A stretch of DNA of 33,170 nt. It comes from Altererythrobacter xiamenensis (lineage in GTDB: Bacteria; Pseudomonadota; Alphaproteobacteria; Sphingomonadales; Sphingomonadaceae). Positions within the stretch are counted from its first letter, which is position 1. Each line of letters starts with the position of its first letter. The stretch lies in the NCBI GenBank assembly GCA_945906905.1, contig CAMDSM010000003.1, forward strand, positions 1 to 33,170, read 5' to 3'. Shown in pieces: positions 19,426 through 24,242 of this stretch. The position numbers were made by a program, and so were the translations under genes. Below the pieces are notes generated by a model, which saw nothing but the letters and a program-made list of their open reading frames with translations, was not told the origin of the DNA and did no database searches.

Positions 19426-20840
19426 TGGCGCGTTTTTTTGGACGCGTGCTTCCCAAGAGCTTGCTGGGGCAGATGCTGCTGGCGGTGGCTCTGGCGTTGC
19501 TTGTGGCGCAGACGCTGTCGGGCATCCTGTTGTTCCGCGCCGAAAACCAGCGCCGCGAATCCGATTTCACGGCCGCATTGGCATTCCAGCTGGTGGCCGA
19601 TCCGCGGGTGGACTATCGCTCGGCGGGCGATGCCAATCACGGCGAGCGCTTGCGGCGGCTGCGGATCGAACGATCCGACGCCAGCCCGGTCCTGCCGGGC
19701 GAGGTGACCGACCCCGAGCGTGAAGTGCGCCTTCGCGAAGTGCTCACCAGCCAGGATATCGTGATCGATGAACTGGTGGTTCTCGAACGCGAAACGCGCA
19801 ATGACGAGTATATCCTGCGCGGCCTCAGCCGGATCGGGCGCAGCAACAGTTTCACCAACCGCGAACGCTGGGATCGCGATGGGCGGATGCTGCTGGCCGG
19901 GTTGAAACAGGAAGGTGACGGCGAATGGCGCGTGGCCCGAGTGCCGATGTTTGACATGGAACCGCGTCGCTATGGCGCAGTGCTGATGCAGACCTTGCTG
20001 CTTTATATTGTGCTGGTCGGCGGCCTCGCCATCCTGCTGCGCCGCATCACCCGCCCGCTGGCGGCATTAGCCGACCGTGTCGAACGTTTTGCCGAAACCC
20101 GCCAGACCGCCGGGCAACTCGAACCGACCGGACCGATGGACACCCGCCGCCTGATCATCGCCCACAATGCCATGGAAGCGCGCATTGCCGCGCTGATTGA
20201 CGAGAAGGACGTGATGCTGGGCGCCATCGGCCATGATCTGAAAACACCGCTCGCCGCCCTGCGGGTGCGGATCGAATCGGTTGAAGACGAGACCGAGCGC
20301 GGGAGAATGGCCCGGACGATCGAGGATATCACCCGCTCGCTCGACGATATCCTCAGTCTCGCCCGCGTCGGCCGCCCAACCGATCCGCTCGAACGCACCG
20401 ATCTGGCCGCGCTGGTCGCTTCGGTTGTGGAGGAATATGAGGACATGGGTGAGCCGGTGACGCTAGGCGAAACGGCGCGTATGGCGCTCGAGTTGCGCGC
20501 AACCTGGCTGCGGCGGGCCTTGCGCAACCTCATCGACAATGGCCTGCGTTATGGGCAGGCCCCGCACGTGTCGCTGGCACGTGAAGGGGCCGAGGCAGTG
20601 ATCCGGATCACCGATAAAGGCCCCGGCATTCCCGATGGCGAGATTGCCGCAATGATGGAGCCATTCACCCGCGGCGAAGCCTCGCGCAATCGCGAAACCG
20701 GCGGCGCGGGCCTCGGCCTGACGCTGGCGCGGGCCATCGCTGAACAGCATGGCGGCCGCTTGAGCCTGTCGAACATGCACGACGAGAGCGGCAAAGTAAC
20801 CGGCCTGGCCGCCGAAATTCGCCTGCCTGTATTAGGTTAG
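19425..20840 (+). CDS. Sensor histidine kinase (HAMP-HisKA-HATPase)
   Basis: Two TM segments, H-box AIGHDLKTPLAALRVRIESVED, N-box LRNLIDNGLRYG, DKGPGIPDGEIAAMMEPFTRGEASRNRETGGAGLGLTLARAIAEQHGG. Start overlaps response regulator stop (TGATG). Confidence 0.95.
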   Translation: MARFFGRVLPKSLLGQMLLAVALALLVAQTLSGILLFRAENQRRESDFTAALAFQLVADPRVDYRSAGDANHGERLRRLRIERSDASPVLPGEVTDPEREVRLREVLTSQDIVIDELVVLERETRNDEYILRGLSRIGRSNSFTNRERWDRDGRMLLAGLKQEGDGEWRVARVPMFDMEPRRYGAVLMQTLLLYIVLVGGLAILLRRITRPLAALADRVERFAETRQTAGQLEPTGPMDTRRLIIAHNAMEARIAALIDEKDVMLGAIGHDLKTPLAALRVRIESVEDETERGRMARTIEDITRSLDDILSLARVGRPTDPLERTDLAALVASVVEEYEDMGEPVTLGETARMALELRATWLRRALRNLIDNGLRYGQAPHVSLAREGAEAVIRITDKGPGIPDGEIAAMMEPFTRGEASRNRETGGAGLGLTLARAIAEQHGGRLSLSNMHDESGKVTGLAAEIRLPVLG

Positions 20841-22357
20841 CCCCCGACTGAATTGGGCACCAGTAGCCCATTTTCCAGCAGGTAGCGAAAATAGAACCAC
20901 TTCTCCTTCTCGCTGTTCACCTCGTTGCGGAAGGCGGTGATCAGCCGTTTGCCGTCGGTCTTGAGGTAGATTGCCCCATCCACTTCGACATTGGTGCGGG
21001 CAAGTTGCCGGATCAGATCGGTGATCTCGACCATCCTATCAGGCGATGGCCCGGCCACCTGGGCTTCGATCTTGGCGTGCAGATCAATCGCCAGCTGCTC
21101 GTCCTCGCGTTCGCGGGTGGATCGCTGCAATTCGGTGGACAGCAGCACGGGGGCAAAACCACGTCCCAGACGGCCCAGCCTTCCCAGCAGATCGGGCCGC
21201 GGGTGGACATGGCCTTCCTCGTCGCCCGATGAGATCACAAAGGCCGCCGGATGGACTGCGCTGAGGAATTCGTCGGTCACATCGGCGGCGCCGTGGTGGC
21301 ACACTTTCATCACATCCGACCGGAAAGTCTGCCGCGCTTCGGCCACAAAGATTTCGCGTTCGACAATGGTGGTCGGCCATTTGCCGATCCCGGTGTGCTG
21401 CTGAAGGAGGAACTTCTCCGCCGGGGCGTTCAGATCGCCACCGAACAGCACGCTAAAGGCACCGAATTGCAGCCGCAGGATCACCGAATGGCCGTTCTTG
21501 GTCTTGCCATAGCTGCCGCCCAGCACCCGCAACTTGTCACCATCGCCAGAATTCTCGACGAAAGGCCCAAGCACCTGGATGGTATAGTCACGAGCCGGAT
21601 CGGGAGCGAAGCCGGGCAGCCAGGCCTTGCCGCCATGCTGCTCGCCGTGCACGGTTGAGACCATGCGGTAGTCATCGACTGCGCCGCGCGCCAAGGCATG
21701 GCCCATCATCTGCGGATAGACATAATCGCGCGGCGGCGCGGTAAAGGCGGCGCGCATCGCGGAATCATCCACCAGCAGCCCGCGCAGATAGGAGAGATCC
21801 TCGCCAGCGCGCTGTTCCTTGCCGCCAACCTTGGCAAAATCGCCCGCCACCGCCCGCTCGGCCAGGCCGCTGTGATAGAGGTGGGCAAAGCGCGCCTTGG
21901 TATCGCGGAAAATCTGCGTGAAACCGCCGTAATGATCCTCGTCCGGGTGGGTGATGATCGCGGCATGGAAGACCAGCCCGGCGGTATTGGCGATGATCTT
22001 GAAGCGGTCAGCCAAAAACTCGGCCATATGATGCGATTTGCCCGCATCGATCACGACAATGCGCTCTGTTCCATCGCGCTCGGGCGTAATCAGCACGCAC
22101 CCATCGCCCTGGCCGACATCGACGAAGATGATCTCCAGCGGTCGCTGGTCGGTCAAGTGGCGAGTGGCCACACGCAAGGCTTGTGGATTGCCGCTCGACG
22201 AGCCCCACAACACATGCGTCCATTCGCCGCCCACTGGCCCCGCCGGATCCAGCGTAAGGTAATCACCCCACAACACTTGGCGGACCTTTTCGCCGCCATG
22301 GGTGAACAGGAAGATAGGCTTGTCATCGGGTGAAAGGTCGACGAATTTGTGTGCCAT
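20837..22357 (-). CDS. Standalone ComEC/Rec2-like MBL-fold metallohydrolase
   Basis: LEIIFVDVGQGDGCVLITPERD, HAAIITHPDEDHYGGFTQIF (HxDxDH-type), SVLFGGDLNAPAEKFLL, VMKVCHHGAADVTDEFLSAVHP; no multi-TM competence domain. Confidence 0.87.
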   Translation of the reverse strand: MAHKFVDLSPDDKPIFLFTHGGEKVRQVLWGDYLTLDPAGPVGGEWTHVLWGSSSGNPQALRVATRHLTDQRPLEIIFVDVGQGDGCVLITPERDGTERIVVIDAGKSHHMAEFLADRFKIIANTAGLVFHAAIITHPDEDHYGGFTQIFRDTKARFAHLYHSGLAERAVAGDFAKVGGKEQRAGEDLSYLRGLLVDDSAMRAAFTAPPRDYVYPQMMGHALARGAVDDYRMVSTVHGEQHGGKAWLPGFAPDPARDYTIQVLGPFVENSGDGDKLRVLGGSYGKTKNGHSVILRLQFGAFSVLFGGDLNAPAEKFLLQQHTGIGKWPTTIVEREIFVAEARQTFRSDVMKVCHHGAADVTDEFLSAVHPAAFVISSGDEEGHVHPRPDLLGRLGRLGRGFAPVLLSTELQRSTREREDEQLAIDLHAKIEAQVAGPSPDRMVEITDLIRQLARTNVEVDGAIYLKTDGKRLITAFRNEVNSEKEKWFYFRYLLENGLLVPNSVGG

Positions 22358-22375
22358 GCCAGCTTCTCCCCCAAG

Positions 22376-22651
22376 TTAAGAGCGCTTCTCGACCAATCCG
22401 GTACACCGTGATTGCCGCTGGAAGCTCCTCGGCAAGGAGCGTTGCGCAGGCCGGACTGGGTTGTCCGAACAAGCAACGCGACGTAGTCCGAGGGGCTTCC
22501 AGCAGCAACCCCGAAGGGGCGGGCCCCTTTTGGCCGATTGCGGCGTCTCTCGTCTGTCACGATGCAATGGCATCGCTCCCTCCTCGTTCCTTGCACTCGG
22601 CCAAAATTGGCTCCGTCACGGTGTGCCGGATTGGTCGAGAAACGCTCTAAG
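22376..22651. repeat. 276-bp compound inverted-repeat element (MITE-like or structured RNA)
   Basis: Arms 22376-22410 and 22617-22651 are complementary at 31/35 positions. Internal stems 22412-22432/22488-22508 (19/21) and 22528-22541/22593-22606 (13/14), plus hairpins CGATGC-AATG-GCATCG (22560-22575) and CCCC-GAA-GGGG (22509-22519). Confidence 0.85.
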
Positions 22652-22655
22652 CCAA

Positions 22656-24242
22656 TCAGCGCATCAGGCCGCCGATCAGGTTGCGCACAAATCTGCCGAT
22701 AATCGGTCCGCCCATTTCGCTGGCCATCGAGCCTGCCGCGCTGGTGGCGGCGTTGCGCATCGGGTTGGAGCGGCTGCGGCGGCCGGTGATCGCTCCGGCT
22801 GCGACGGTGGCGGCTGATGCAGCAGCAGCGCCGAGCGCGGCCTTGCCTGCCTTTTCCCAGATCGACGGGCTGGTGCGGGCGCGGCGACCCACTTCTTCCT
22901 CGCCCTTCTCTGCCACTTCCACGGCTGTGGCAGCGGCATCGGCGCTCTTGAGCGCGATCATTTCCTCGGCACTTTCGCGGTCAATCTTGGTGTCATATTT
23001 CCCGTCGAACGGACTGATCGACTGGATGAGCGCGCGCTCCTTGTCTGTAATCGGTCCCAGCCGGCTGCGCGGCGGCTTGATCAGCGTGCGCTGGACCACC
23101 GAGGGCGATCCATCCTCCAGCAGGGTGGAGACGAGCGCCTCGCCCGTGCGCAGTTCGGTAATCACCACCTCGACATCCAGTTCAGGATTGATGCGGAAGG
23201 TTTCCGCCGCCGCCCGAATCGCCTTCTGATCGCGCGGGGTGAAGGCGCGCAGGGCGTGCTGCACGCGGTTGCCCAGCTGGCCGGCAACTTCCTCAGGGAT
23301 ATCGATCGGGTTCTGGGTGACGAAATAGACGCCCACGCCCTTCGACCGGATCAGCCGCACCACCCGCTCAATCGTGTCGGTCAGCGCCTTGGGGGCATCG
23401 TCGAACAACAGGTGTGCTTCGTCAAAGAAGAACACCAGCCCTGGCTTTTCCGGATCGCCGACTTCGGGCAGGCTCTCGAACAGTTCGGCCAGCAGCCACA
23501 GCAGGAAAGTGGCGTAGAGCTTGGGGCTGCGCATCAGCTGATCGGCGGCCAGCACGTTGATAAGCCCTCGCCCCTGTTCATCGCAGCGGATGAAGTCGTT
23601 GATCTCCAGCGCCGGTTCGCCAAAAAACTGCGCCCCGCCTTGCGAATCAAGGCTGAGCAATTGCCGCTGGATCGTGCCGACGCTGGCCTTGGTGACATTG
23701 CCGTATTTGGAGGTCAGATCGGCGGCATTTTCGGCGGTGAAATGCAGCATCGCCTGCAGGTCTTCCAGATCGAGCAGCAGCATCCCTTGCTCGTCGGCAT
23801 AGCGGAACACGATGTTGAGCACGCCTTCCTGCGTCTCGTTCAAGTCAAGCAGGCGGGCCAGCAACAGCGGACCCATTTCCGATACCGTGGTGCGGATCGG
23901 GTGGCCCTGCTGGCCATACAGATCCCAGAACACCGCCGGATTATCCGAATAGGCATAGTCGGTCATGCCCAGTTCGGCAGCGCGGCTTTCCAGCTTGTCG
24001 GCGTGTTTGAACATGGGCGAACCGGCCATCGAGATGCCCGCCAGATCGCCCTTCACATCGGCCACGAACACCGGCACGCCCTGGGCCGAGAAACTTTCGG
24101 CCAGCCCTTGCAGTGTCACCGTCTTGCCCGTGCCGGTGGCGCCTGCGACCAGTCCGTGGCGGTTGGCGCGGCCCAGATTGAGCACTTGCCGCCCGCCGCT
24201 GGCATCCTTGCCGATGAAAATCTCGCCGCTAACCTCAGCCAT
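22656..24242 (-). CDS. HerA-like ATPase/helicase of the DUF853 (YjgR) family
   Basis: Walker [23 protein letters not shown], Walker [58 protein letters not shown]. Confidence 0.93.

Follow-up and report, generated by a model that had tools for sequence, protein, structure and literature searches.

Introduction

MITEs are usually seen as decayed transposons whose interiors are not conserved. RUP/IS630-Spn1 is a non-coding, TA-flanked system with IS630-like terminal repeats and presumed mobilisation by IS630; RUP is 107 bp long, belongs to one species and has no conserved internal structure reported (PMC2229807). Correia/NEMIS and ERIC are also MITEs, with 5'TA3' termini, stable folds and intergenic positions near gene ends (PMC2229807, PMC10969869). 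The alphaproteobacterial CIR elements have TA termini and a conserved structure, in which a linker connects two hairpin arms (PMC2229807). REP dimers and REPINs, including the palindrome-nested GTAG-15 of Anabaena and CGTC-1 of Halothiobacillus, are inverted dimers of tagged hairpins within a palindrome (PMC3733652); REPs of the CGTC type have a CGTC tag, an 8-9 bp stem that starts with AT, and a CCA tail (PMC3733652).

Here we analyse a stretch of 33,170 nucleotides from Altererythrobacter xiamenensis (contig CAMDSM010000003.1; hereafter the window), in which an initial annotation had placed a nested inverted repeat between a HerA-like ATPase gene and a ComEC-like MBL gene, and had read it as a MITE- or REP-type mobile element or a large structured RNA. 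The repeat is one copy of a previously undescribed, non-coding mobile family that appears to hitchhike on IS630-type transposases. We found no description of such a family in the literature searched, subscription literature and ISfinder lying outside that search.

Results

A nested inverted repeat folds on both strands

All parts of the nested inverted repeat that the initial annotation had described were found at 22376-22651. The features of the locus are as follows.

22376..22651, no strand assigned: whole element, from sequence, fold on both strands and other genomic copies
22376..22411, + strand: left outer arm, terminal inverted repeat TTAAGAGCGCTTCTCGACCAATCCGGTACACCGTGA, which pairs with 22616-22651
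22412..22508, + strand: module A hairpin, with CAAGGAGCG...CGCGACG on the + strand; from sequence, homologous to module B
22509..22519: mini-hairpin CCCC-GAA-GGGG, from sequence, with a GNA triloop, separating the modules
22521..22618, - strand: module B, 98.4 bits and E = 2.2e-18 (G000:C3) with covariance model R1, whose training set includes the window copy (as L001) as 1 of 55 sequences
22549..22586, - strand: conserved core of module B, CGAGGAGGGAG-[CGATGC-CATT-GCATCG]-TGACAGACGAG, with G.A positions kept among copies
22616..22651, - strand: right outer arm, terminal inverted repeat reading inward as TAGAGCGTTTCTCGACCAATCCGGCAC, with an IS630-end match
24242..22656, - strand: HerA_C protein gene (PF05872, 700.7 bits)
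22357..20837, - strand: MBL-fold protein gene, 506 aa (Lactamase_B, E = 0.0015; TIGR00361 ComEC_Rec2, 52.5 bits; both scores under their cut-offs)

Folded as RNA, 22376-22651 reaches -172.2 kcal/mol on the + strand (shuffles, -104.4 ± 5.8; z = -11.7) and -170.2 kcal/mol on the - strand (z = -11.7), and 0 of 200 shuffles fold as well on either strand. The predicted fold is a multibranch junction, so the architecture proposed initially was reproduced. The 21-bp and 14-bp stems that had been noted are the outer portions of two homologous, inverted modules, and the "internal loop" beside CGATGC-aatg-GCATCG can form, on the - strand, a continuous helix with tandem G.A pairs. Three tandem G.A steps cap the 6-bp hairpin in the module B core of the window, and module A has the tandem pairs A22438.G22480 and G22437.A22481. 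The element ends on the right with GCTC-TA (22644-22649) and on the left with TTAA-GAGC (22376-22383), where the TA lies one base away from its place at the right end; the TA-to-TA span is about 22377-22649.

The two neighbouring genes are on the - strand, HerA_C first and the 506-aa MBL-fold protein after it; in their reading direction the element lies downstream of herA and ahead of the MBL gene. The likeness of the MBL-fold protein to ComEC is confined to its MBL domain and scores below cut-off. In a congener (G007) the HerA-MBL pair is present and adjacent without the element, and other copies have unrelated genes as neighbours, in either orientation; both observations speak against the suggested role in the leader of the MBL mRNA. 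A gene-specific leader RNA or riboswitch is likewise not supported, as position and orientation before one gene type are not conserved.

The HerA ATPase and MBL-fold protein are neighbours in the same order in the window (20837-24242) and in the congener (L148). Most of the other relatives that were searched did not show this arrangement; the two are possibly a transferable gene pair.

Copies are dispersed across two phyla

Besides the window copy, BLASTN found seven or more others, full or partial, in the genome of the window (at least eight in all) and matches in 11 of the 101 genomes searched, its own genome counted. R1, a covariance model built from 55 alphaproteobacterial copies, identified carriers among Sphingomonadales (60/301), Alphaproteobacteria (16/289 sampled) and Bacteroidota (3/297, query genome included), and some genomes hold at least 13 copies. 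The elements are about 170-310 bp long, with a median of 254. Carriers of a 26-base core pattern include Sphingomonas, Sphingopyxis, Croceibacterium, Erythrobacter, Porphyrobacter, Tsuneonella, Sphingosinicella, Aureimonas of the Rhizobiales and, in the Bacteroidota (Muribaculaceae), Muribaculum, Paramuribaculum and Bacteroidales MAGs. Viral contigs, phages and plasmids gave no match to the element, no neighbouring gene of note is shared among the 3,583 ORFs of the element loci, and neither 61 relatives nor G200, a genome with recent copies, yielded an autonomous copy whose arms are the same. Rfam 15 gave no match at the gathering score for the window element and 15 loci.

Two modules lying 4 kb apart in G289 proved to be two separate elements. 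Four loci in RPSH01 records labelled "Bacillus sp. 2B10" (L052, L054, L057, and L073) hold Sphingomonas-type copies, and the genes beside them are Sphingomonas-like too, which probably reflects mislabelling or contamination of the record.

The modules are conserved and covary

Each copy consists, inward, of the outer arms, then module A, the mini-hairpin and module B, the modules being two homologous hairpins of ~98 nt inverted around the mini-hairpin. In module B, the purine-rich strand has the sequence GAGGAGGGAG-[CGATGC nn GCATCG]-TGACCGACGA. On either side of the 6-bp hairpin, the bases pair as G.U, A.G, G.A, G-C, G-C, A.G, G.A, G-C, A.G and G.A, that is, with three tandem G.A steps, and many alphaproteobacterial copies have a fourth step after a pair that covaries between C-G, A-T and T-A. 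The tandem G.A positions are kept in 52-55 of 55 alphaproteobacterial copies. Pair 32.74 switches jointly from A.G to C.A (28 and 26 copies; swap in 26/55). Since the purine-rich motif stands on one strand only, only that strand folds with the G.A helix.

In 12 or more distant loci, R1, trained on module B alone, also detects a second, inverted module at a distance of 11-14 nt. Module A is the opposite-strand homologue of module B, and hence the ancestral element is best read as a dimer of inverted modules, one of which folds on each strand. Between them, the mini-hairpin pairs over a 4-bp stem, and its loop is three bases long in 101 of 107 cases; of these 101 triloops, 79 are GNA on one or the other strand, against a chance expectation of 1/8. 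C-GNA-G loops are of the type found in very stable DNA mini-hairpins, such as d(GCGAAGC). The indifference of the mini-hairpin to strand fits the inverted-dimer design.

We scored covariation in an alphaproteobacterial alignment (A1) and in a second alignment, drawn mostly from other alphaproteobacterial families and Bacteroidota (A2). Within A1, 95.0% of cells pair and compensatory (double) changes occur at 21 of 31 pairs; the covariation score is 0.375, against 0.115 ± 0.007 in shuffles (0/500) and at most 0.070 in slid registers. At pair G40-C65 of A1, the window copy has A in place of C. In A2, which was aligned by fitting to the model structure so that pairing is favoured, 91.2% are paired and every one of the 31 pairs shows compensatory change, with a score of 0.778 against 0.189 ± 0.010 in shuffles (0/500); slid registers on A2 still give at most 0.138. 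This covariation supports a structured nucleic acid. A lack of copies and of covariation, or a match to a described family, had been named in advance as counting against the proposal; both copies and covariation were found, and Rfam gave no match.

Some Bacteroidota copies (L302, L307, G101, Muribaculaceae) have AT-rich inserts between the modules. A shorter subfamily in G101 (L311-L317, Muribaculaceae) seemingly has a single module, and two arm and module types stand side by side in this one genome.

Copies are TA-flanked and often lie in stop codons

Among the 106 scored copies, which are those with any TA-ended register (24 more gave none), TA stands at both ends in 81 and at one end in 25. 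The base before TA is C or T in 76/106 and the base after it G or A in 78/106, which defines a YTAR target; IS630 itself prefers CTAG. The empty-site check that had been suggested was mostly fruitless at the HerA loci, where the intergenic DNA of relatives is too diverged to align, and gave one clean case elsewhere: CTAG flanks both insertion ends at L064, and its relative L113 has a single CTAG, the gene's own stop codon, and no element. This one pair fits a TA duplication, but TA is too short and palindromic to serve as proof of one.

In the output of a simple gene caller, the neighbours of the elements are gene 3' ends in 127 cases and 5' ends in 80. The gene context (n = 93) is convergent at 33 sites, tandem at 50 and divergent at 10; the median distance to the gene 3' end is 0 nt, with copies often in the stop codon, and orientation at tandem sites is unbiased (30 vs 20). 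TA targeting would account for much of the 3'-end excess, as TA is presumably concentrated in stop codons in GC-rich genomes. Many intergenic insertions seem to have landed on stop codons, and gene 3' ends have probably been reshaped.

G200 carries many near-identical copies of one arm type, several truncated at contig ends. Between two of its near-identical copies (L218 and L220), the ATTAG/TTTAG arm difference changes sides, a pattern that looks like an inversion of the core within its arms and that an assembly effect might also produce. Arms-only palindromes of 57-65 bp with the same TAGAGCACTTTCCGACC arms (G009:C1:961887-961951 and G008:C75:11604-11660) are explained by slippage between TCACCGTGA repeats at the inner arm ends; together with single-module copies such as L273, they look like slippage deletions.

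The arms vary and match IS630 ends

Within one copy, the outer arms are 85% complementary over their first 24 positions. Between copies, arms agree at 0.48, against 0.446 when shuffled, hardly above chance, and the 81 copies with TA at both ends fall into 26 arm clusters. In G246, L246 and L251 have module B cores that are 96% identical and arms that are 45% alike; of the copies with similar cores and dissimilar arms we use this pair alone, since inner TA dinucleotides put part of the others out of register.

Six loci (L184, L286, L287, L340, L363, and L364) hold Sphingomonadales insertion sequences of the IS630 family, ~1,050 bp long, with a transposase matching NF033545 (E = 5e-62). At L287, an integrase-core transposase ORF (238-1221; IS481/IS3-like by eye) adjoins the IS630 copy in an insertion-sequence cluster.

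Among IS630-family elements of Sphingomonadales, 34 of the 42 assigned ends start with TAGAGC or TAGAGT, although a few assignments look wrong; past this tip, the sequence varies from element to element. The MITE tips are the same TAGAGC/TAGAGT as those of IS630 elements resident in the order. Beyond the tip, 52 IS-arm pairs match at 14 or more of 18 positions (mean in shuffles, 0.03), and 20 copies match an IS630 end at 13 or more of 18 (shuffles, 0.2). For the window arm, the match beyond the tip is to the L363 (G343) IS630 end, at 14/18 positions; the best null match averages 8.5, and 0 of 500 shuffles reached 14. An ATTAG/TTTAG difference from end to end is common to the IS of G320 (L364) and the G200 element.

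The modules were sought in the IS630 elements and were absent, and the element is thus no simple deletion derivative. We found no IS630 transposase in most of the carrier genomes tested, including that of the window (G000) and the complete genome G009, and carriers were not visibly enriched for it. No IS with exactly matching arms was found in G200. The six Bacteroidota carriers that were tested have arms with different tips, and no IS630 was detected in them. As most carriers now have no IS630 gene, most copies are probably immobile relics.

Discussion

The element is short, non-coding and non-autonomous, with terminal inverted repeats (0.85 within a copy vs 0.48 between copies) and dispersed copies; it shares with the IS630-related, RUP-like MITEs the IS630-like terminal repeats and a TA target, here with YTAR preference. 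Because its TA-flanked ends match IS630 ends class by class, we read it as an IS630-mobilised MITE: it is very probably moved in trans by transposases of the IS630 family (Tc1/mariner type) and carries paired, folded modules. The MITE alternative of the initial annotation is supported. An IS630 transposase would bind the arms and excise or copy the element, which would insert at TA with duplication of the TA. For Sphingomonadales, an IS630-type transposase is the best-supported mobiliser, transposition itself being deduced from the ends and target sites. The hypervariability of the arms may arise because the IS630 elements whose ends they carry differ from lineage to lineage. The modules would act as folded single strands, one usable per strand, so that the element could work in either landing orientation; they may form an RNA hairpin in a 3' UTR that is transcribed by read-through from one side or the other, or an extruded or single-stranded DNA hairpin. 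The strand symmetry suggests a function that is workable from either strand, and we give about equal weight to an RNA hairpin on either strand and to a cruciform or single-stranded DNA hairpin.

At somewhat less than even odds, we suggest that the tandem-G.A module is a deeply conserved functional nucleic-acid device of Alphaproteobacteria and Bacteroidota, typically arranged as an inverted dimer so that each strand offers one folded copy. On this view it travels between chromosomes on IS630-type ends that are swapped, and is a structured cargo and not a decayed transposon. One alternative is that the element is a structured RNA first, a cis-regulatory or mRNA-stabilising 3'-UTR element that spread by transposition and whose module is conserved by selection on the RNA. 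The strong covariation, the tandem G.A pairs, the excess of gene 3' ends (127 vs 80 5' ends) and the few divergent sites agree with it; an excess of this kind is also expected from stop-codon TA targeting with purging of promoter insertions, and the unbiased orientation at tandem sites (30 vs 20), the GNA loops on either strand of the mini-hairpin and the lack of any conserved gene association count against it. A G.U excess in the outer arms (124 vs 62) had pointed to a strand-specific RNA, which we rejected when the asymmetry vanished with one copy per arm cluster (23 vs 23). On balance, we consider the RNA-first reading rather unlikely. We are about as doubtful of the idea that the modules are DNA devices, cruciforms or lagging-strand hairpins that help excision or insertion or dimerise the transposition complex. 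Such a role would suit the strand-symmetric build, with one well-folding module per strand, the GNA triloops found on either strand (79/101), of the type of the very stable d(GCGAAGC) DNA mini-hairpin, and the lack of strand bias in copy orientation and arm G.U content, but GNA triloops occur in RNA too, IS630 elements move without such modules, and arms-only copies exist, though these are apparently slippage deletions.

Two further readings are far less probable. A REP/BIME-type element moved by a RAYT (Y1/HUH) would be a giant REPIN, with two inverted GGAG-tagged hairpins in a palindrome; the inverted dimer of GGAG-hairpin modules follows the same logic as REPINs and palindrome-nested REP dimers (PMC3733652), and copies do sit at gene 3' ends. 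We consider this very unlikely, and the REP-type alternative of the initial annotation largely refuted: Y1_Tnp (PF01797) is absent from 13 of the 19 carrier genomes tested, including the complete G009, no core lies near any of the 12 Y1 genes found, and the ends are TA and match IS630, with no GTAG tag. The chance that the element is a small protein gene is slighter still, bordering on nil. Although the window copy has a 65-codon ORF, opened by GGAGGGAGC-ATG on the - strand, and the Shine-Dalgarno-like GGAGG and ATG are conserved, the apical loop of 2, 3, 4 or 5 nt shifts the frame, the Bacteroidota ORF has 4 codons, a stop falls within 30 codons in 44 of 143 copies, and changes track pairing, not codons.

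The IS630-mobilised MITE described here is conserved in its interior and not at its ends, with a tandem-G.A hairpin that shows complete covariation across two phyla. Its transposon ends vary and match different IS630 elements, which makes it a testable case of a structured cargo, selfish or useful, that changes its carrier. The covariance model offers a route to annotating hundreds of intergenic inserts that are now unannotated.

Comparison with known systems

REP units are 20-40 bp long with a GTAG or CGTC tag, whereas this element has modules of ~98 nt, a tandem-G.A core and IS630-type ends. Membership of the CGTC REPs is ruled out by the stem, CGATGC/GCATCG, and the lack of a CCA tail, and membership of the GTAG REP/RAYT group by the lack of a repeat-flanked Y1 (RAYT) gene among the 12 found in the carriers tested. 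CIR is defined by an exposed GANTC; in this element GANTC is depleted (35 in 128 copies vs 101 expected), which excludes it from CIR. Correia/NEMIS and ERIC, contrasted here by description, differ in that each family has a single conserved terminal repeat, lacks the tandem-G.A module and lives in other hosts. The Sphingomonadales IS630-family elements share with it the TAGAGC/TAGAGT tips, the TA target and arm classes, and differ in their length of ~1,050 bp, the presence of a transposase and the absence of modules. Closest by features is RUP/IS630-Spn1, from which the element differs in its length of ~270 bp, its presence in two phyla, its covarying inverted modules and its many arm classes.
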